Of a stretch of DNA of 64,000 nucleotides, positions 1,963-20,377 are shown one piece after another. Position numbers and translations under genes: made by a program. Each line of letters begins with the position of its first letter. Position 1 is the first letter of the stretch. Under the pieces are notes generated by a model. That model had not been told where the DNA came from and did no database searches. It saw nothing but the letters and a program-made list of their open reading frames with translations. Source of the stretch: a bacterium (lineage in GTDB: Bacteria > Bacillota > Clostridia > Lachnospirales > Lachnospiraceae); the NCBI GenBank assembly GCA_030535455.1, contig JAUNJY010000009.1, positions 18,061 through 82,060 of the forward strand, given 5' to 3'.

Positions 1963-2904
1963 TTATTTCACAAAAGCTTTTACTTTTTCAGCAATGCTTT
2001 CGCCATCTAATCCGTATTTTTTGATTAAGGCAACTGCTGGGCCTGATTCACCAAATACATCATTTACACCAATTTTTAAAACTTGTGTTGGGTAGTTTTC
2101 AGAAAGCACGTCACATACAGCACTTCCAAGACCGCCGATTACAGAATGTTCTTCTACAGTTACAACTTTACCAGTTTCTTTTGCAGAAGCGATAATTAAT
2201 TCTTTATCAATTGGTTTGATTGTGTGGATGTTTACTACTTTTGCACTAATTCCTTCTTTTTCAAGAAGATCTGCAGCGATTAAGGATTCGTTTACTTCAA
2301 GACCAGTAGCAACGATTGTTACGTCTTTACCTTCTCTTAAAACAACACCTTTACCGATTTCAAATTTGTAATCTTCTGTATCGTTGATTACAGGTACTGC
2401 AAGTCTGCCGAAACGAAGGTAAACAGGTCCTTCATATTCATAAGCAGCTTTCACAGCAGCTCTTGCTTCCACATCATCAGAAGGGTTGATTACAACCATG
2501 CCTGGGATTGCTCTCATTAAAGCGATATCTTCATTACATTGGTGTGTTGCTCCATCTTCACCTACGGAGATACCAGCATGTGTTGCTCCAATCTTAACAT
2601 TTAAGTGTGGGTAACCGATAGAGTTACGAACTTGTTCAAACGCACGTCCTGCTGCGAACATCGCGAAGGAACTTGCGAAAGGTACTTTACCTGTTGCAGC
2701 AAGTCCTGCTGCGATACCCATCATGTTACATTCTGCGATACCACAGTCAATGTGACGTTCTGGGAACTCTTTTTTAAAGATTACTGTTTTAGTAGCCTCT
2801 GCTAGATCGGCATCTAAAACATATAAGTTATCATGTTCTTTTGCTAATTCAACTAAAGCTTTACCATAGCTTTCTCTCGTTGCAACTTTTCTTACTTCTG
2901 ACAT
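1963..2904 (-). CDS. Transketolase, C-terminal subunit
   Basis: A 313-residue protein carrying the pyrimidine-binding and C-terminal domains of transketolase (GEDGATHQCNEDIALMR near residue 118; IVATGLEVNESL in the last domain). With the N-terminal subunit encoded just upstream it rebuilds one full transketolase, which moves two-carbon units between ketoses and aldoses with thiamine diphosphate in the pentose phosphate pathway. Its ATG lies inside the end of the upstream gene (13-base overlap), so the two are translationally coupled. Split transketolases of this kind are common in Firmicutes and archaea. A DXS-type enzyme is less likely because of the length and subunit split. Confidence 0.93.
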   Translation of the reverse strand: MSEVRKVATRESYGKALVELAKEHDNLYVLDADLAEATKTVIFKKEFPERHIDCGIAECNMMGIAAGLAATGKVPFASSFAMFAAGRAFEQVRNSIGYPHLNVKIGATHAGISVGEDGATHQCNEDIALMRAIPGMVVINPSDDVEARAAVKAAYEYEGPVYLRFGRLAVPVINDTEDYKFEIGKGVVLREGKDVTIVATGLEVNESLIAADLLEKEGISAKVVNIHTIKPIDKELIIASAKETGKVVTVEEHSVIGGLGSAVCDVLSENYPTQVLKIGVNDVFGESGPAVALIKKYGLDGESIAEKVKAFVK

Positions 2905-3731
2905 AATTCTTCACCTACCTTTTCTAAATCTGCTAAAGCGATTGCTAATTGTTCATCGTTAGGAGCGGAACCATGCCATTTGCATTGATTTTCCATAAAG
3001 GAAACGCCTTTACCTTTTGTACTCTTAGCAATAATTGCTGTTGGCATACCTTTGCATGCTCTTGCAGCTTTAAATGCACGGTCTAATTCTTCAAAGTCGT
3101 GTGCACATTCAACATTGATTACATTAAAGTTAAATGCTTCGAATTTCTTATCAATTGGGTATGGAGAACATACATCCTTGATACTTCCATCTATTTGTAA
3201 TCCATTGTTATCCACGATAACAACTAAATTATCTAATTTTTTCGCGCCTGCAAACATGGCAGCTTCCCAAACTTGACCTTCTTGGATTTCGCCATCTCCA
3301 AGTAATGTATACACACGGTAGTCATCATTTGTGAGTTTTGCTGATAATGCCATTCCTACTGCTGCAGAAATTCCTTGTCCAAGAGAACCACTAGACATAT
3401 CTACGCCTGGAATATGCTTCATATCTGGATGTCCTTGTAAATAAGAACCTACATGACGTAATGTAGTAAGATCCTCTACTGGGAAAAATCCTCTATTAGC
3501 AAGTGTAGAGTAGTAACCAGGAGCCGTATGTCCTTTTGATAAAACAAATCTGTCACGATCCGCTTTTCTTGGATTTTCTGGGTCAATATTCATTTCTTCA
3601 AAATATAAATAAGTATAAATGTCAGCTGCGGATAATGAACCGCCTGGATGTCCTGATTTTGCGCTATGCACTGCTTTAACGATCCCTTTTCGTATCTCAT
3701 TAGCAGTCTTTTGAAGTTCTAATGTATTCAT
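2892..3731 (-). CDS. Transketolase, N-terminal subunit
   Basis: A 279-residue protein with the thiamine diphosphate-binding half of transketolase. The signature starts GDGEIQEGQVWEAAMFAGA and ends in DNN about 27 residues later, and SGHPGGSLSAADI near residue 27 is the phosphate-contacting N-terminal motif. It pairs with the C-terminal subunit whose start codon overlaps its stop. The 276 bases upstream to the M18 peptidase gene hold no gene and must contain the operon promoter. Confidence 0.93.
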   Translation of the reverse strand: MNTLELQKTANEIRKGIVKAVHSAKSGHPGGSLSAADIYTYLYFEEMNIDPENPRKADRDRFVLSKGHTAPGYYSTLANRGFFPVEDLTTLRHVGSYLQGHPDMKHIPGVDMSSGSLGQGISAAVGMALSAKLTNDDYRVYTLLGDGEIQEGQVWEAAMFAGAKKLDNLVVIVDNNGLQIDGSIKDVCSPYPIDKKFEAFNFNVINVECAHDFEELDRAFKAARACKGMPTAIIAKSTKGKGVSFMENQCKWHGSAPNDEQLAIALADLEKVGEELCQK

Positions 3732-4007
3732 CTTGATACCACCTTTACTATATTCGCGACTTTGTCGACTAAAATACGTATTTTATTTTTATAAAATACA
3801 CATTTTCACTAATTCTATTCTATTATAACAGATTCTTGTTTTTGTACAAGCATAAGAGCTAGCAAGTTTTCTATGGGTTTTGTCGCATTCTCTTGTAACA
3901 TCTGCACAGTGCTTTTTCCCTTTCTGCCGCCTATGCGTGACATAACATCTACAAAGTGTGCCCATTGCGTTTATAAACTTTGGGCATTTCTAGCAAATGC
4001 TAATGAT

Positions 4008-5294
4008 TTATAAGCTAAAATAAGCTGTAAGCAAACATTCTAAGTATTCCTGATCCTTTGCACCCATCGTCTCTCTGCTAGAATGCATTGCTAACAAAGG
4101 AATTCCAATATCCTGAGTCGGAATTGGCAAGATTGCATTCACAATCGCACCTAGAGTAGATCCGCCTTTTACATCTGAACGGTTATAAAATTTCTGATAT
4201 GGTATATTCATCTTTTCACAAATACCTACTACCATTCCAACCATTGCTGCATCGCTGGCATAGGACTGGGAGCTGGCGATTTTCACCGCTACCCCTTTAT
4301 TAAGGTAGACTTTATTTGTAATATCCGATTTCTCTTTTTTGTTTGGGTGAATTGCATGAGCAACATCGACACTAAGGCAATTACTCTTAAGAAGCGCATT
4401 GTCATATTGCATCTTGCTTCCACCAAGGGTACAGTATAACTTTTCAAGTAAGATACCAAGTAAATGAGAATCTGCACCTTTCTTGCTTCTAGATCCGACT
4501 TCCTCATGATCAAAACAGCCAATCACATCAATGCCTGTTTCTCTTGTTCCATTTACTAATGCCGTAATACAAGCCTGTACACTGGAGATATTATCAATTC
4601 TTGGTGCTGAAATAAACTCGTTGTTTAATCCGACTTCGCAGCCTTCTTCTAAACAATACACGCCTAATTCATAATCTAAGATATCATCCTTAGCCACACC
4701 TGCCTCTTTTGCAAGGGCATCCATAAATGTCACTGTATCGATTTCTTCACCTGACATTCCAAGAAGAGGAAGTAAGTCGATTTGATTATTAATTTCCACT
4801 CCACTATTTACGTTGCGATTTAAATGGATTGCAAGGTTTGGAATTGTAATGACTGGGCGTTTAAAATCCACTAATTTAATTGTTGGTGCAAATATGTCAT
4901 CACTCTTTACTGCAACTTTTCCTGCAATGGATAATGGACGGTCAAACCATGTATTTAAGATTGGTCCACCATAAACTTCCACATTTAACTTCTTATATTC
5001 ACCATCTATGATTTCAGGATTTCCCTTAATTCGTAGTGCCGGTGAATCTGTATGAGCATGGGCAAAACGGAAGCCTTGTCCTAACTCGAACTCTCGATTG
5101 ATATGAAATGCCATAAACGAAGAGTCGTATAAATCGATATAGTATCCTTTTCCACGTTCTAACTGCCATTCCTCTGAAAGCGCAAGTTCTGTATATCCAG
5201 CTTCTTGTAATTGTCGCTTACTTGCCTCAACACAATGAGTTGGAGAAGTGGATTCGCTGATTGTTGTTAAAAGTCTTTTTGTAATTTTATTCAT
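4008..5294 (-). CDS. apeB: M18-family aminopeptidase
   Basis: A 428-residue cytosolic metallopeptidase of the M18 (aspartyl aminopeptidase-like) family, the usual length. Metal-binding landmarks are visible: HAHTDSPALRIKG near residue 93, CFDHEEVGSRSKKGAD in the middle and DVAHAIHPN further on. These enzymes remove N-terminal residues from peptides using two zinc ions. It appears monocistronic, with its own promoter region after 5294. Bacterial M18 enzymes vary in residue preference, so aspartyl specificity is not assured. Confidence 0.93.
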   Translation of the reverse strand: MNKITKRLLTTISESTSPTHCVEASKRQLQEAGYTELALSEEWQLERGKGYYIDLYDSSFMAFHINREFELGQGFRFAHAHTDSPALRIKGNPEIIDGEYKKLNVEVYGGPILNTWFDRPLSIAGKVAVKSDDIFAPTIKLVDFKRPVITIPNLAIHLNRNVNSGVEINNQIDLLPLLGMSGEEIDTVTFMDALAKEAGVAKDDILDYELGVYCLEEGCEVGLNNEFISAPRIDNISSVQACITALVNGTRETGIDVIGCFDHEEVGSRSKKGADSHLLGILLEKLYCTLGGSKMQYDNALLKSNCLSVDVAHAIHPNKKEKSDITNKVYLNKGVAVKIASSQSYASDAAMVGMVVGICEKMNIPYQKFYNRSDVKGGSTLGAIVNAILPIPTQDIGIPLLAMHSSRETMGAKDQEYLECLLTAYFSL

Positions 5295-15156: not shown

Positions 15157-15993
15157 ATGCAACTTCGTGATCTCAAGAAATCCAAATTGGTAAGGATCGG
15201 CTCCTTTCCCTTTGCCAACCTATCCAGGCAGCTTCGAAAATTAACCTTTCAGTATACTATAGATGCCAAGAAACTACGCTCCTTTAAAGACAGCCATCCA
15301 GGCGAGCGCTGCTTTATCATAGGAAATGGACCTAGTCTTTCTGCCCATGATTTGGACCAGTTAAAAGACGAATTCACCTTTGGATTTAATAAGATTCTAG
15401 AAATCTTTCCAGAAACCGACTGGAGGCCTTCTATGTATATGTGCGTGGAATTAAATACCTTGTGCGACTGTCAAAAAGGAATTCGCAAGCTGACCATGCC
15501 CACCTTCATTTTAAAAGAAGGAAAAAAATATTTTACTTCGTTTGATTCCCATATCACCTATATTTGTAATCATGTTCCATTTCTTATTAACCGCTACAAA
15601 CGCGTAGATGGAATTTACTTAAGCGAAGATGTGTCTAAATATTTTATTGGTGGGGAAACAGTTGTCTTCAATGCCATACAGATGGCTATTTATATGGGCT
15701 TTAAGGAAATCTATCTGTTAGGTGTCGACCACAGCTATTCCAAAAAGGTAAATTCCAAAGGTGTCATTACTGTAAATCCTGACATTAAGGATTATTTCGG
15801 AAATGTAAAGACTACTCCTTATACGCTGCAGACCATTGATACGGTCAATGCTGCCTATCGTTCCTGTAAAGACTATTGTACGAAACATAATATCATCATA
15901 AAGAATTTAACTCGCGGTGGAATTCTAGACATCTTTGACCGTGATAATTTTGATCAAATCTTATTAAACGGAGGCGTTAAACATGCAAGCTAA
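15157..15993 (+). CDS. DUF115 / GT42-like glycosyltransferase
   Basis: A 278-residue protein, first of a five-gene operon. It has the Rossmann-type segment GERCFIIGNGPSLSAHDL (about residue 48) and the later IQMAIYMGFKEIYLLGVDHSY. This is the arrangement of the MptE-like/DUF115 family and also of CMP-sialic-acid transferases of family GT42 (GNGPSL ... MG/LGYKEIYLxGxD). Because the next gene makes a CMP-sugar, I infer a transferase that uses a CMP-activated keto-sugar acid; a pterin kinase role is unlikely here. A second copy of the domain is fused in the product of 18212-20266. The start follows GGAAGGTAG; the stop overlaps the next gene by 11 bases. Confidence 0.7.
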   Translation: MQLRDLKKSKLVRIGSFPFANLSRQLRKLTFQYTIDAKKLRSFKDSHPGERCFIIGNGPSLSAHDLDQLKDEFTFGFNKILEIFPETDWRPSMYMCVELNTLCDCQKGIRKLTMPTFILKEGKKYFTSFDSHITYICNHVPFLINRYKRVDGIYLSEDVSKYFIGGETVVFNAIQMAIYMGFKEIYLLGVDHSYSKKVNSKGVITVNPDIKDYFGNVKTTPYTLQTIDTVNAAYRSCKDYCTKHNIIIKNLTRGGILDIFDRDNFDQILLNGGVKHAS

Positions 15994-16636
15994 AAAAATA
16001 GTTGCGATCATACCAATCAAATTAAACAATGCCAGGCTTCCTGGCAAAAATACTAAGATACTGGGAGGACGTCCGCTGATCAGCTATGTTCTTTCTTACT
16101 TAAAAAAAGTAGATGAAATTGATGAAATCTACGTCTACTGTAGTGACACTTCAATTGAAGACTATCTAGAAGATGGCATTCATTTTCTAAAACGCCCGGC
16201 ATATTTAGATGAGCCTACTTCCAACTTCACACAAATCTTTGAGTCATTTTCAAGAAAAGTCGATGCAGATATTTATGTCTATGCCCATGCCACTGCTCCT
16301 TACATAAAATCGTCCACCATAAAACGCTGCATCCATAATGTGACCGACAAAGGATTTGACTCTTCCTTTACTGCAGAAAAGATACAGGATTTCATCTGGA
16401 AGGATGGACGTCCTCTGAATTTTGATGCTGCCAATGTGCCTCGAAGCCAGGATATTGCTCCAATTTACCGGGAAACATCTGGCGTCTACGTATTTAGCAA
16501 GCAGGTATTTGAACGCTACCATAGACGGATTGGCGCACTCCCTTGCCCTGTGGAGGTCACAAAAAAGGAACAGACTGACATCAATTACCCGGAAGATTTT
16601 GAGACTGCCCAATTATATTTTAACTATTGTGATTAA
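15983..16636 (+). CDS. CMP-sugar (acylneuraminate/ulosonate) cytidylyltransferase
   Basis: A 217-residue protein close in length to NeuA/PseF enzymes. The CTP-binding start AIIPIKLNNARLPGKN carries the conserved PGKN signature, followed by GGRPLISYVL. HATAPYIKSSTI and the C-terminal EQTDINYPEDFETAQ, with the metal-binding Asp, also match the family. It should couple CTP to a 2-keto-3-deoxy sugar acid. Substrate cannot be read from sequence. It overlaps the upstream gene and its stop overlaps the start region of the aldolase gene. Confidence 0.88.
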   Translation: MQAKKIVAIIPIKLNNARLPGKNTKILGGRPLISYVLSYLKKVDEIDEIYVYCSDTSIEDYLEDGIHFLKRPAYLDEPTSNFTQIFESFSRKVDADIYVYAHATAPYIKSSTIKRCIHNVTDKGFDSSFTAEKIQDFIWKDGRPLNFDAANVPRSQDIAPIYRETSGVYVFSKQVFERYHRRIGALPCPVEVTKKEQTDINYPEDFETAQLYFNYCD

Positions 16637-16653
16637 TGAAGGAGGACTATGTT

Positions 16654-17709
16654 ATGAGTACAATTTCTATTTTAGACTGCACCTTACGAGATGGAGGATA
16701 TATTACAGGCTGGGATTTTGGAGATACCACCATTAAAAATATGATTTCTAACCTGGTGGAAGATAATTTAGACTTTATTGAGTGTGGTTACCTAAATCAC
16801 AAAGACTATGTGCCCGGAAGTACTATCTTTAAAACTATTAAACAAATCAAAGACTTTCTTCCTTCTGACAGAAAGAATACAAAGCTGCTGGCCATGGCCG
16901 ATGTTACCCAGTTTTCACCGGAAGACCTGACCCCTTATGATGGTTCTTCTATCGATGGAATCCGAGTGGTGTTTTATAAACATCAGATCAAGGAAGCTCT
17001 AAAACTTTGTAAGGCAATTAAGAAAAATGGTTACCTGCTTTTTATCCAGCCAATGGTTACCATCGACTATACCATTCAAGAATATGCAAGTCTTACAGAA
17101 AAGCTGAATAAGCTAGCTCCTTATGCTGTTGCCATTGTAGATAGCTTTGGCTATATGAATAAAAATGACTTTCGTAAATATTTTATGATTTTAGATAACA
17201 TCCTGGCTCCTGATGTCTATATCGGATTCCATTCTCACAATAATATGCAGCTTGCCTTTCTCACAGCACAGGACATATTTGATTATAAGACAAGCCGCAA
17301 CCTGATTATTGATGGTTCCCTATATGGAATTGGACGAGGTGCCGGAAATCTGCATACCGAACTGATCACCAATTACTACAATATGGTGGTAAAGCCAAAG
17401 TATAACGTCCCAAATATCCTTTCCTGTGTGGGCACCTATATCCTGCCAATCAGAAAAACCAGAAGCTGGGGGTACTCTCCTTACTTATTTATCACCGCCT
17501 TATATCATGTCCATCCAAACTTCGCATGCTACCTGTTAGAAAAACATGATTTAAGCGTTGCTGAATTTGAAGACTATGTGAAGACAATTCCGGATGAGAT
17601 GCGTACCAAGTGCAAGAAGCCATACGTTGAACAGCTTTATCAACAGTTTATAGGAGCAGAACCAGTTCTTGCAAATGAAGACTTTGACCTGCATAAAATT
17701 GCACAGTAA
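16654..17709 (+). CDS. HMGL-like (DmpG-type) pyruvate aldolase of a glycan operon
   Basis: A 351-residue TIM-barrel protein of the HMGL-like family. It starts with ILDCTLRDGGY (metal Asp and the catalytic Arg/Asp), has the metal ligands in IGFHSHNNMQLA and a glycine-rich YGIGRGAGNLHTEL loop. Relatives include 4-hydroxy-2-oxovalerate aldolase and citramalate synthase. Between a CMP-sugar synthetase and a KdsC-like phosphatase, I infer that it joins pyruvate or acetyl donor to a sugar aldehyde in making the keto acid, where most pathways use a PEP-dependent synthase. The ATG at 16654 is chosen because GGAGG lies just before it; the in-frame ATG at 16636 precedes that site. Confidence 0.82.
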   Translation: MSTISILDCTLRDGGYITGWDFGDTTIKNMISNLVEDNLDFIECGYLNHKDYVPGSTIFKTIKQIKDFLPSDRKNTKLLAMADVTQFSPEDLTPYDGSSIDGIRVVFYKHQIKEALKLCKAIKKNGYLLFIQPMVTIDYTIQEYASLTEKLNKLAPYAVAIVDSFGYMNKNDFRKYFMILDNILAPDVYIGFHSHNNMQLAFLTAQDIFDYKTSRNLIIDGSLYGIGRGAGNLHTELITNYYNMVVKPKYNVPNILSCVGTYILPIRKTRSWGYSPYLFITALYHVHPNFACYLLEKHDLSVAEFEDYVKTIPDEMRTKCKKPYVEQLYQQFIGAEPVLANEDFDLHKIAQ

Positions 17710-17740
17710 CCATATAAATTCTATTTTTTAGAGGTGAACT

Positions 17741-18208
17741 ATGAACTATTCAATACTATGCCTGGATGTGGACGGAACCTTGACAGATGGAAAAGTATAC
17801 ATAGGAAATGACGGCGAAGTCATGAAGGCATTCAATATAAAGGATGGCTATGGAATTCGTCAGTATATTGAGGCTGGCGGTATTGTTGCCATTATTACAG
17901 GCCGGATTTCCAAAATTGTGGGACACCGTGCTTTTGAACTTGGAATTAAAGAAATCTACCAAGATATTACAAATAAAGCGCAAGTGATGGAACTTCTTGC
18001 AAAAAAATATCATACTACGATTGCAAATGTTGCCTTTGTAGGCGATGACATGAATGACCTGGAAGCAATTCAGGCCTCTGGAATAAGCTTTATGCCTAGC
18101 GATGGCTATGAGGGCCTAAAGCCTTATGTATCTGCCGTTCTTACCCATAAGGGCGGAGAAGGTGCCGTAAGGGAAGCGATCGATATCTTATTAAGTGAAG
18201 GAACGTGA
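17741..18208 (+). CDS. KdsC-like HAD phosphatase
   Basis: A 155-residue cap-less HAD phosphatase, the length of KdsC (KDO 8-phosphate phosphatase). Motifs in order: CLDVDGTLTDGK (nucleophile and acid Asp), IITGR, and GDDMNDLEAI. KdsC-type enzymes remove the phosphate from keto-sugar-acid phosphates before CMP activation, which fits the neighbours on both sides. AGAGGTG provides the ribosome binding site. The fusion of such domains with cytidylyltransferases in animal and some bacterial NeuA supports the pairing. Confidence 0.9.
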   Translation: MNYSILCLDVDGTLTDGKVYIGNDGEVMKAFNIKDGYGIRQYIEAGGIVAIITGRISKIVGHRAFELGIKEIYQDITNKAQVMELLAKKYHTTIANVAFVGDDMNDLEAIQASGISFMPSDGYEGLKPYVSAVLTHKGGEGAVREAIDILLSEGT

Positions 18209-18211
18209 GTT

Positions 18212-20266
18212 ATGATACGAAAACTATATTACAGATTATCAAAGCTAAAACAAAAGGTAACTAGTAAACTTTATCATAATACGATTTATATGAAACTAAG
18301 GTTTTCCTTATTTTCCATTGGTGAAATCAAGGAAAACCTGATTATATTTGAGTGCAATTTTGGCCGAGGATATTATGGACAATTGCGGGCCATCTATGAG
18401 GCGATGCTTTCTAATCCAGACTACTATAATTTTTATTTTATATGGAGTGTTCGAAACTATTCTTCTAACCAATCACTGCTTGAGAAAGAACGTACCGGCC
18501 TGGCCAAAATCGGCACGCCAAGCTGGCTTAAGGCTTATGCAAAAGCCAAATATATCATTACCAACAAACCAGTCTCCACCCTTGTCCATAAGCGGCCTGG
18601 CCAATGCTATATCCTTTGTTCTGATGAGTTACTGGATTATGGAACTGCAAGATATCCAGCCATGCAATGGCCCCAGTATGACTATGAGGTGGCTAGCACG
18701 TTTGGTAAGCTGCTAAATCGATATAAGACTGTAAGCGGTGCAAACAAACTGCTTTTAGGTCACTATACGGCTAATTCCCATATCGCTACAGCCAATTTAA
18801 AAGACTCTCTTATAAGCACGATTACACAGGACTCCATTGATACTGCACTTCAAAATATCCGTTTTAAGCGTCCTGGCCAGTCATTTCAAATTGTAGGGAC
18901 ATTTTTAGAAAACACAAAAGTATCGCCACCTTTAAATAGCCGTTACTATCAAAATAATCAGTACTACTTTTGCAAGCCAGGTCCTTCTTTGGACTATTAT
19001 GTATTGCTGCATATTGCAGACTTAATCGTCACCGATTCCATTGGCGTTGTACATACAGCCAATACACTGAAGAAACATTGTATTTACGTAAATAGCTATG
19101 GACGCACGCCTACCATCAGCGGCCTATACTTTACGGAGGTAAAAAGTTTTCTTGATGTCTATATGCTTCTCTCTCTTGCAAGCTTTACCAATTACAGCTA
19201 TCGTTCTATTGACTTATATGCTGAATGTGACCATGAAGAATCCTTCGTAAATTCCACTGAGTATTATGCTGCAATCGGTAAAAACATTAATCTTCCTGCC
19301 TCTTACGAGACCCTGTTCGGACACAACGAACAAATCTGCAATTCCATGGATACTTTGCTAAAGAGCTTGATTCGTCCTGTTTTAAACACTGTTTCTGTTC
19401 CTTACCATATTAAAAGGGGGAAATCGAAAAAGTTACTAAAGGCCATTCTAAAATCCATCGATACAAGACTCTATCAGTGGAAGCTTACGGTCTCCTATTT
19501 GATAAAGAAAACGGGACATTGCCTTACTACAAATGACCGAAAACTTCTATCCTATAAAAATAAGTTTCAAGGGGAACGATGTTTTCTTATCGGGAATGGG
19601 CCAAGCCTTACCACAAATGATTTAGAGCTGCTACAAAATGAATATACTTTTGCTTGCAACAGAATTTATAAACTATTTTCCGCAACCACATGGCGGCCTT
19701 CATTCTACTGCCTGATTGACGGAATTATAAGCAAATATGAGTCAAACGATATTGCAAGATATATTCGTTGTCCTATTTTCACAAATAAGAGTATCAGTGG
19801 GCGGCTTATGAAAAAAGGGAATATTGATGACCAGATTATTTACTCCAATAATCTTGGCCTTTCCAATTACAAGATCAGCAAGGACTTTTTTAATTACTAC
19901 ATTCCTTCTGGGGCAACCGTTATGACCTATATGATCGAGCTTGCCATTTATATGGGATTTAAAGAAATTTATCTGCTAGGCGTGGACTGTACTTCTAGTA
20001 TTACAACCGAAGGCGGTCACTGCGTTAATAACTATATCTCTCCTGAAATTCTTGATAAAGATAAGGAACGGATCCGTAAGCGACTTGGTTTCAGTGTCAT
20101 TACAAATGAAGATGTGGCTGATTATTATTTTAATAAATCTACATTTGCATACCGTATCATAAAACATGACCTGGCAAACGAACATAAGGAAGTAAACATT
20201 ATAAATGCCACAAGAGGCGGCATGCTAGAAGTATTTGAACGAACCCGCCTAGAAGATGTGGTATAA
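18212..20266 (+). CDS. Two-domain polymerase-like protein: glycerophosphotransferase-like plus DUF115/GT42-like
   Basis: A 684-residue protein with two halves. Residues about 35-370 resemble the CDP-glycerol glycerophosphotransferase (TagB/TarF) family (ECNFGRGYYGQLRAIYEAM; IVTDSIGVVHTANTLKKHCIYV), but the usual WHGTPLK motif is not visible. Residues about 445-684 are a second DUF115/GT42-like domain (GERCFLIGNGPSLTTNDLEL; ELAIYMGFKEIYLLGVDC), clearly related to the product of 15157-15993. No membrane segment is seen. I infer a bifunctional transferase that builds a phosphodiester- or ulosonate-containing surface polymer. Last gene of the operon, 3 bases after the phosphatase gene, followed by a strong terminator. 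Confidence 0.7.
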   Translation: MIRKLYYRLSKLKQKVTSKLYHNTIYMKLRFSLFSIGEIKENLIIFECNFGRGYYGQLRAIYEAMLSNPDYYNFYFIWSVRNYSSNQSLLEKERTGLAKIGTPSWLKAYAKAKYIITNKPVSTLVHKRPGQCYILCSDELLDYGTARYPAMQWPQYDYEVASTFGKLLNRYKTVSGANKLLLGHYTANSHIATANLKDSLISTITQDSIDTALQNIRFKRPGQSFQIVGTFLENTKVSPPLNSRYYQNNQYYFCKPGPSLDYYVLLHIADLIVTDSIGVVHTANTLKKHCIYVNSYGRTPTISGLYFTEVKSFLDVYMLLSLASFTNYSYRSIDLYAECDHEESFVNSTEYYAAIGKNINLPASYETLFGHNEQICNSMDTLLKSLIRPVLNTVSVPYHIKRGKSKKLLKAILKSIDTRLYQWKLTVSYLIKKTGHCLTTNDRKLLSYKNKFQGERCFLIGNGPSLTTNDLELLQNEYTFACNRIYKLFSATTWRPSFYCLIDGIISKYESNDIARYIRCPIFTNKSISGRLMKKGNIDDQIIYSNNLGLSNYKISKDFFNYYIPSGATVMTYMIELAIYMGFKEIYLLGVDCTSSITTEGGHCVNNYISPEILDKDKERIRKRLGFSVITNEDVADYYFNKSTFAYRIIKHDLANEHKEVNIINATRGGMLEVFERTRLEDVV

Positions 20267-20283: not shown

Positions 20284-20334
20284 TTTTTAATTGATCGGAG
20301 GCTGGTCGAAGAGAAGTTTTCCATCAATTAAAAA
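20284..20334. repeat. T-rich hairpin repeat with conserved loop (copy 1)
   Basis: TTTTTAATTGAT (20284-20295) and ATCAATTAAAAA (20323-20334) form a perfect 12-bp stem. The loop contains GAGGCTGGTCGAAGAGAA then TTTTCC. A copy at 23445-23494 has a different stem but nearly the same loop. It sits between the glycan operon and its terminator. Confidence 0.6.
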
Positions 20335-20377
20335 AGAGACGCCATGCATATTAAATCATGCATGGCGTCTCTTTGTA
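20335..20377. terminator. Bidirectional terminator after the glycan operon
   Basis: AGAGACGCCATGCAT and ATGCATGGCGTCTCT form a perfect 15-bp stem with A-rich and T-rich flanks, between convergent genes ending at 20266 and 20383. Confidence 0.9.

Follow-up and report, generated by a model that had tools for sequence, protein, structure and literature searches.

How would a bacterium build a sugar acid activated by cytidine monophosphate (CMP) when the operon encoding the activating enzyme carries no phosphoenolpyruvate (PEP)-dependent synthase? The question is raised by an operon in a 64,000-nucleotide stretch of a Lachnospiraceae genome (GenBank assembly GCA_030535455.1, contig JAUNJY010000009.1, positions 18,061 to 82,060 of the forward strand), the whole of which is referred to here as the window. 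A CMP-sugar-acid synthetase gene lies there next to genes for a metal aldolase, a KdsC-like phosphatase and two proteins with DUF115 domains, and an earlier note on this DNA had proposed that the aldolase takes the place of the NeuB or KdsA synthase. This proposal is supported by the gene neighborhood of related aldolases, by two gene fusions and by the transferase partners in related loci, and we consider it probable, as a prediction from gene context, that the operon serves to produce a CMP-activated 2-keto-3-deoxy sugar acid and to transfer it, with no PEP-dependent synthase involved.

RESULTS

The operon and its proteins

Open reading frames (ORFs) and family scores confirm the tight operon that had been described, with its CMP-sugar synthetase, TLRDGG-type aldolase, KdsC-like phosphatase and two DUF115 domains, as five plus-strand ORFs at the positions given earlier, 15157-20266 (Table 1). 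The first two ORFs overlap by 11 nt, whereas 31 nt precede the phosphatase ORF and 3 nt the last ORF; the flanking long ORFs that we read as genes are on the minus strand on both sides. All five genes recur in identical order in another assembly (locus L080; protein identities of 81, 86, 89, 87 and 73%), so the arrangement is not due to chance. Judged from the N termini of its relatives, the aldolase more likely starts at the second ATG, at 16654. A promoter scan was uninformative (20 sites versus 18.7 expected). Genes dedicated to sugar precursors, UDP-sugar precursors included, are absent from the operon, and the glycerophosphotransferase-like N-terminal part of its last ORF is a feature that the earlier note had not mentioned.

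Table 1. Coordinates of the operon genes and the downstream hairpin, with family scores
Feature	Position	Strand	Score and remarks
gtA, DUF115/MptE-like protein, probable CMP-sugar-acid transferase	15157..15993	+	PF01973 50.4 bits (cut-off 34.6)
cmpS, CMP-sugar-acid synthetase (CTP_transf_3)	15983..16636	+	PF02348 73.6 bits (cut-off 22.6)
ald, HMGL-type (DRE-TIM) metal aldolase	16636..17709	+	PF00682 (HMGL-like) 55.1 bits (cut-off 29)
kdsC-like haloacid dehalogenase (HAD) phosphatase	17741..18208	+	TIGR01670 159.2 bits (subfamily cut-off 106.95)
gtB, GT-B/glycerophosphotransferase-like N-terminal domain plus DUF115/MptE-like domain	18212..20266	+	PF04464 38.2 bits (cut-off 22.1; covers just the first quarter of the profile), N-terminal part about 18212-19396; PF01973 62.0 bits (cut-off 34.6), DUF115/MptE-like part about 19541-19993
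18-pair terminator-like hairpin 3' of the operon	20333..20374	.	Symmetric stem that ends in A and T tracts; called on the - strand

Below the family level, the assignments are less specific. The nearest equivalog of the synthetase is PseF (59.1 bits; below the cut-off of 205.7), and its score against the KdsB model is 21.7 bits (cut-off, 155.2). The phosphatase passes its subfamily cut-off and falls under the stricter KdsC equivalog cut-off (149.4 versus 208) and that of the 2-keto-3-deoxynonulosonate (KDN)-9-phosphatase (110.9 versus 180), while gtA matches weakly the WaaZ 3-deoxy-D-manno-octulosonate (KDO)-III transferase (27.1 bits; below the cut-off of 200).

The aldolase keeps the TLRDG and HxH motifs, which we take to be the metal site of the superfamily. 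Its best named family matches are the pyruvate aldolases PRK08195 and TIGR03217, with weak matches to isopropylmalate and homocitrate synthases. The closest solved chain to the aldolase profile is 3dxi (2e-56), the molecule name of which, "Putative aldolase," gives no function, followed by 4-hydroxy-2-oxovalerate aldolases, including 1nvm (about 1e-30); the C-terminal part is not alignable to DmpG. The enzyme is thus a relative of the pyruvate aldolases, and pyruvate-aldolase activity itself is predicted. Relatives are named in public records as "aldolase catalytic domain-containing protein," "hypothetical protein" or "4-hydroxy-2-oxovalerate aldolase."

Search for a conventional synthase in the host genome

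No NeuB/KdsA-type match is found among the Pfam and NCBIfam families of the five operon proteins, in agreement with what had been stated earlier. A hidden Markov model search for such a partner elsewhere in the genome, set in advance as the test of the proposal, returned two 3-deoxy-D-arabino-heptulosonate 7-phosphate (DAHP) synthases and neither NeuB nor KdsA in the host assembly (4.35 Mb, 93.6% complete, 7.7% contamination). For NeuB, PF03102 and TIGR03569 matched one low-scoring DAHP synthase only (34.5 and 19.7 bits), which, by ORF reading, adjoins a prephenate-dehydrogenase-like gene; for KdsA, PF00793, presumably the family that would catch it, matched that gene and one other, each a DAHP synthase by ORF reading (TIGR01362 was not run here). 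The single CTP_transf_3 (PF02348) match in the genome is the operon's own cmpS. Since only the two DAHP synthases were found, the only synthetase of this family lacks a partner synthase of known type in the assembly, and it is the aldolase that adjoins it. A sialate lyase run in reverse was considered as a source of the keto acid and rejected, as the one gene of the DHDPS/NanA family (PF00701) in the host genome adjoins, by ORF reading, a dapB-like gene and looks like dapA.

Gene neighborhoods of related aldolases

Two samples of related loci were compared. The first survey covered 295 genomes of the order, 59 of which, the host included, had an aldolase match at an E value of 1e-20 or less; the matches form two groups, a close set and a set of distant paralogues (identity, roughly 27-33%), and 40 loci were fetched, 30 from the close set (L040-L069) and 10 from the distant one (L070-L079). 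A cytidylyltransferase of the same kind is present in 23 of the 30 close-set loci, with L069 as a 24th, where it is of the ribitol-phosphate type and fused to the aldolase, and in none of the 10 distant-paralogue loci. The second sample came from a scan of one genome per species, which matched at least 592 stretches with at least 586 relatives; the best 80 were kept, and the sample therefore leans toward genes like those in the window, with DCTLRDGG invariant by construction. Many contigs are short, so genes missing from a locus are in part accounted for by contig ends.

In these 80 loci, the neighborhood survey suggested by the earlier note finds a cytidylyltransferase somewhere in 71; in 59 it is the immediate upstream neighbor of the aldolase, in the same orientation (an ORF was present there in 79). 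Directly downstream (72 had such an ORF), kdsC follows in 16/80 and another HAD phosphatase in 19/80. A separate DUF115 gene is found in 26 loci and a polysialyltransferase-like gene, defined by a match to two proteins over the PF07388 cut-off (one narrowly), in 28. One or the other accompanies the aldolase in 54 of the 71 loci with a cytidylyltransferase versus 0 of the 9 without one (Fisher P = 1.3e-5, a guide only, the loci being related and some contigs incomplete). The cytidylyltransferases next to the aldolase exceed the TIGR00466 KdsB cut-off in L045 and L054 and fall just under it in L042 (153.0 versus 155.2), among five loci scanned.

A sugar kinase resembling 2-keto-3-deoxygluconate (KDG) kinase is present in 5 of the 80 loci, always directly downstream of the aldolase; the one scanned, in L095, is near the 2-keto-3-deoxygluconate kinases (NF041633, 487 bits, cut-off 700; NF041332, 223 bits, cut-off 440). 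Such a partner points to a 2-keto-3-deoxy sugar acid as the product, though the kinase cut-offs are not reached. In L005, an IMG/VR contig listed as viral, a KDG-kinase-like gene stands with a cytidylyltransferase and a long aldolase, and the contig may be a prophage, cargo or misbinned host DNA.

The gene set recurs across phyla; among the relatives, by their record titles, are Lachnospiraceae, other Clostridia, Bacilli, Synergistaceae, Helicobacteraceae, Campylobacterales, Bacteroidales, Gastranaerophilales and Treponema. Niameybacter massiliensis and Paenibacillus sp. HB172176 are examples of cultured bacteria that carry it. Among four plasmid loci, only L038 (Leisingera) has a cytidylyltransferase; aldolase, KdsB-like synthetase and HAD phosphatase genes lie there in a row within a polysaccharide locus, and the aldolase sits on a long branch outside the main clade. 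In the Clostridia-type locus L105, and similarly in L088, L094, L097, L100 and L113, polysialyltransferase-like genes and an ABC-2-type exporter are combined with a KdsB-like synthetase and the aldolase, and these look like capsule loci for a poly-keto-sugar-acid.

Fusions and the DUF115-like domain

Two loci join the aldolase and a cytidylyltransferase in one protein. In L133 (Campylobacterales; 2352-4658), a single 768-aa ORF comprises an HMGL-like aldolase, a DUF115-like domain and a KdsB-like CTP_transf_3 domain, with NeuB on the same contig. In L069 (5569-7326), a cytidylyltransferase of the IspD/ribitol-5-phosphate type is fused to the aldolase, which suggests a cytidine diphosphate (CDP)-linked rather than a CMP-linked product in that genome.

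An extra C-terminal domain of about 190 residues is carried by 68 of the 80 aldolases. It has no Pfam match in the members scanned, and by hhalign it appears to be a remote homologue of DUF115 (probability, 92.3%; E = 5.5e-7), compared with 0.2-1.4% for four controls; a phosphatase identity, suspected at first for these residues, is not supported, the alignment with KdsC giving 1.4%. The clade of the window's aldolase consists of seven aldolases (SH-aLRT support, 99), and in each of the seven loci a cytidylyltransferase is accompanied by a separate DUF115 gene, with the DUF115 genes of L081 several genes distant from the aldolase. None of the five members of this clade among the 80 loci has the fused domain, so the DUF115-like part is either built into the aldolase or encoded on its own.

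Transferases and possible acceptors

The host genome has two PF01973 matches only, both inside the operon. The PF01973 domain is described, in a published report, as the central domain of Maf, which in a Maf structure resembles the sialyltransferase Cst-II, and the Maf enzymes of C. botulinum and Geobacillus are described there as accepting CMP-Neu5Ac and KDO (PMC11339370). Five PF00669 flagellin matches in the host genome make flagellin one possible acceptor. Another is a glycerophosphate-containing polymer, because the N-terminal part of gtB is distantly related to teichoic-acid-type glycerophosphotransferase domains of relatives: it matches weakly both L108 and L146, in which a full-length PF04464 domain is joined to an MptE-like one, the L108 protein scoring 292 bits against TarF (cut-off, 550). 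ORFs that combine a glycerophosphotransferase-like part with DUF115 lie just upstream of the synthetase in L101, L104, L108, L126, L137 and L146; Pfam sees both domains in L108 and L146, and such ORFs are possible bifunctional polymerases.

DISCUSSION

Several observations weigh against the proposed function of the operon: (i) the aldolase misses the cut-off of the 4-hydroxy-2-oxovalerate aldolase equivalog TIGR03217 (59.0 bits; cut-off, 286), the residue that we take to be the catalytic His of DmpG aligns with a Tyr, and we know of no characterized member of this aldolase clade; (ii) gene order is no proof of reaction order; (iii) the KDG-kinase-like gene is not specific to the CMP context, since two of the five (L132 and L141) lie in loci with a thiamine diphosphate (ThDP) enzyme; (iv) NeuB or KdsA is present in a share of the aldolase genomes; and (v) some related loci have the ThDP enzyme in place of the cytidylyltransferase. 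The last two underlie alternative explanations.

On the first alternative, the synthetase activates a conventional sugar acid, either scavenged or made by a NeuB or KdsA that the assembly lacks, and the role of the aldolase is a separate one, the synthesis of a keto-acid decoration. At the completeness of the host assembly, a NeuB could have been missed. Co-occurrence was scored in 79 aldolase genomes, many of them incomplete metagenome-assembled genomes, 49 with PF03102 and TIGR01362 and 30 with TIGR03569 and TIGR01362, so that two differing NeuB models were used. If a match of at least 139 bits is counted as NeuB scale (our own threshold; weaker ones are at the level of DAHP synthases), 24 of these genomes (14/49 and 10/30) have one, and KdsA exceeds its cut-off in 15 (8/49 and 7/30). 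NeuB is encoded in L115, where it accompanies pseudaminic-acid-type genes just upstream of the aldolase (names by ORF reading), as well as in L133. Against this, 47 of the 79 genomes (31/49 and 16/30) have neither enzyme; L115 and L133, both Campylobacterota-type, are the only 2 of the 125 fetched loci in which a single-sequence search found NeuB; the host's only such cytidylyltransferase lies in the operon, with no NeuB or KdsA found; and in L133 and L069 the cytidylyltransferase is fused to the aldolase itself. We regard this alternative as unlikely.

The second alternative makes the 2-keto acid of the aldolase an acyl donor for a ThDP enzyme that builds a branched sugar, the CMP context being secondary. 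An acetolactate-synthase-like ThDP enzyme without such a cytidylyltransferase is present in 6 of the 80 loci and in L049, L058, L063 and L064 of the first survey, and CDP-glucose-pathway genes are matched in L049, L058, L063, L141 and L152 (family scores were checked for L063); the aldolase and the ThDP enzyme of such loci might together lead to branched sugars whose side chains are longer. In L036, a Desulfobaculum plasmid, the aldolase has transketolase-like genes and rfbH as neighbors, and the locus has no cytidylyltransferase of the same kind. The operon in the window, by contrast, has no ThDP gene, and every locus of its clade pairs a cytidylyltransferase with a separate DUF115 gene, which leaves the ThDP explanation very unlikely for it. 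In a quick tree of 126 aldolases (98 with a cytidylyltransferase, 10 with a ThDP enzyme and 18 with neither), the context labels change 10 times versus 26.8 expected in shuffles, a clustering to be read with the long branches present and the near-copies that aid it. Both contexts could plausibly be reconciled if the product of the aldolase is a 2-keto acid, which would be either activated by CMP or decarboxylated and added to a sugar.

Two further ideas about the ThDP enzyme were rejected. Mutual exclusion with the cytidylyltransferase holds in the 80 loci (none with both) and fails in the first survey, where L053, L056 and L057 have both. In L053 (8225-9821), the acetolactate-synthase-like gene, which follows the aldolase directly, is read as a pair of ORFs, of 177 and 369 aa, that overlap. 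A phosphonate explanation, of the CMP-2-aminoethylphosphonate type, was raised by the ThDP ORFs of L053 and L056; acetolactate synthase is the top match of both ORFs in L053, and phosphonopyruvate decarboxylase is absent among the best 25 of about 50 families for each (PEP mutase was not searched for).

The least probable explanation, to which we give hardly any weight, is that the HMGL-type enzyme works as a Claisen-type (acyl-coenzyme A) synthase or lyase and that CMP activates something other than a 2-keto-3-deoxy sugar, for although HMGL-like enzymes include the isopropylmalate and homocitrate synthases that match weakly here, the best named families are pyruvate aldolases, and the cytidylyltransferase, KdsC and KDG-kinase-like partners suit keto-sugar acids.

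If the operon acts as an aldolase-based pathway to a CMP-activated sugar acid, its steps could be as follows: (i) the metal-dependent aldolase would add pyruvate, as its enolate, to an aldose that is probably phosphorylated, and a common aldose phosphate is suggested by the lack of dedicated sugar-precursor genes; (ii) the KdsC-like phosphatase would take the phosphate off the product; (iii) the synthetase would move CMP from CTP onto the ring-closed keto acid; and (iv) the two DUF115 proteins would attach the sugar to its acceptor, which may be flagellin or a wall polymer that contains glycerophosphate.

Such a pathway would share parts with several known systems. With the KDO pathway (KdsA, KdsC, KdsB and WaaA/WaaZ) it has in common a KdsC-type phosphatase, a CTP_transf_3 synthetase and a DUF115 protein weakly similar to WaaZ, whereas no KdsA was found in the host and the operon has a DRE-TIM aldolase instead. 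The nonulosonate pathways (NeuB/PseI, NeuA/PseF and Maf) have a counterpart in the synthetase, which is PseF-like below the cut-off, and in the Maf-type transferase domains, yet no NeuB was found, UDP-sugar precursor genes are lacking and the phosphatase is of the KdsC type. The 4-hydroxy-2-oxovalerate aldolases (DmpG and BphI) are of the same aldolase family with the same motifs, but the equivalog score, the presumed His-to-Tyr difference and a C-terminal part that is often DUF115-like in relatives set the operon's enzyme apart, and 3dxi remains its closest solved relative.

What appears to be new here is that a known kind of pathway, that of sialic acids and KDO, would form its key carbon-carbon bond with another enzyme. 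In the literature, searched by titles and the beginnings of abstracts and with most subscription journals outside the coverage, we found no aldolase-based CMP-sugar-acid pathway of this composition. Whether the operon exemplifies a widespread third route to the CMP-activated keto-sugar acids of surface glycans, one in which a DRE-TIM pyruvate aldolase replaces the PEP-dependent synthase in numerous monoderm bacteria of the gut and in several further phyla, sometimes within a single aldolase/DUF115-like transferase/CMP-synthetase protein, is a generalization that we judge evenly balanced between true and false.

Surveys of sialic-acid-like and KDO-like sugars use NeuB or KdsA as marker genes. 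If the third route exists, it may yield sugar acids of undescribed chain lengths, invisible to surveys based on these two enzymes. The finding gives a testable function to a clade of aldolases that now carry generic names in public records, and, if the aldolase does the work of the synthase, many gut Lachnospirales and other bacteria would make acidic surface sugars that marker-gene surveys have missed.

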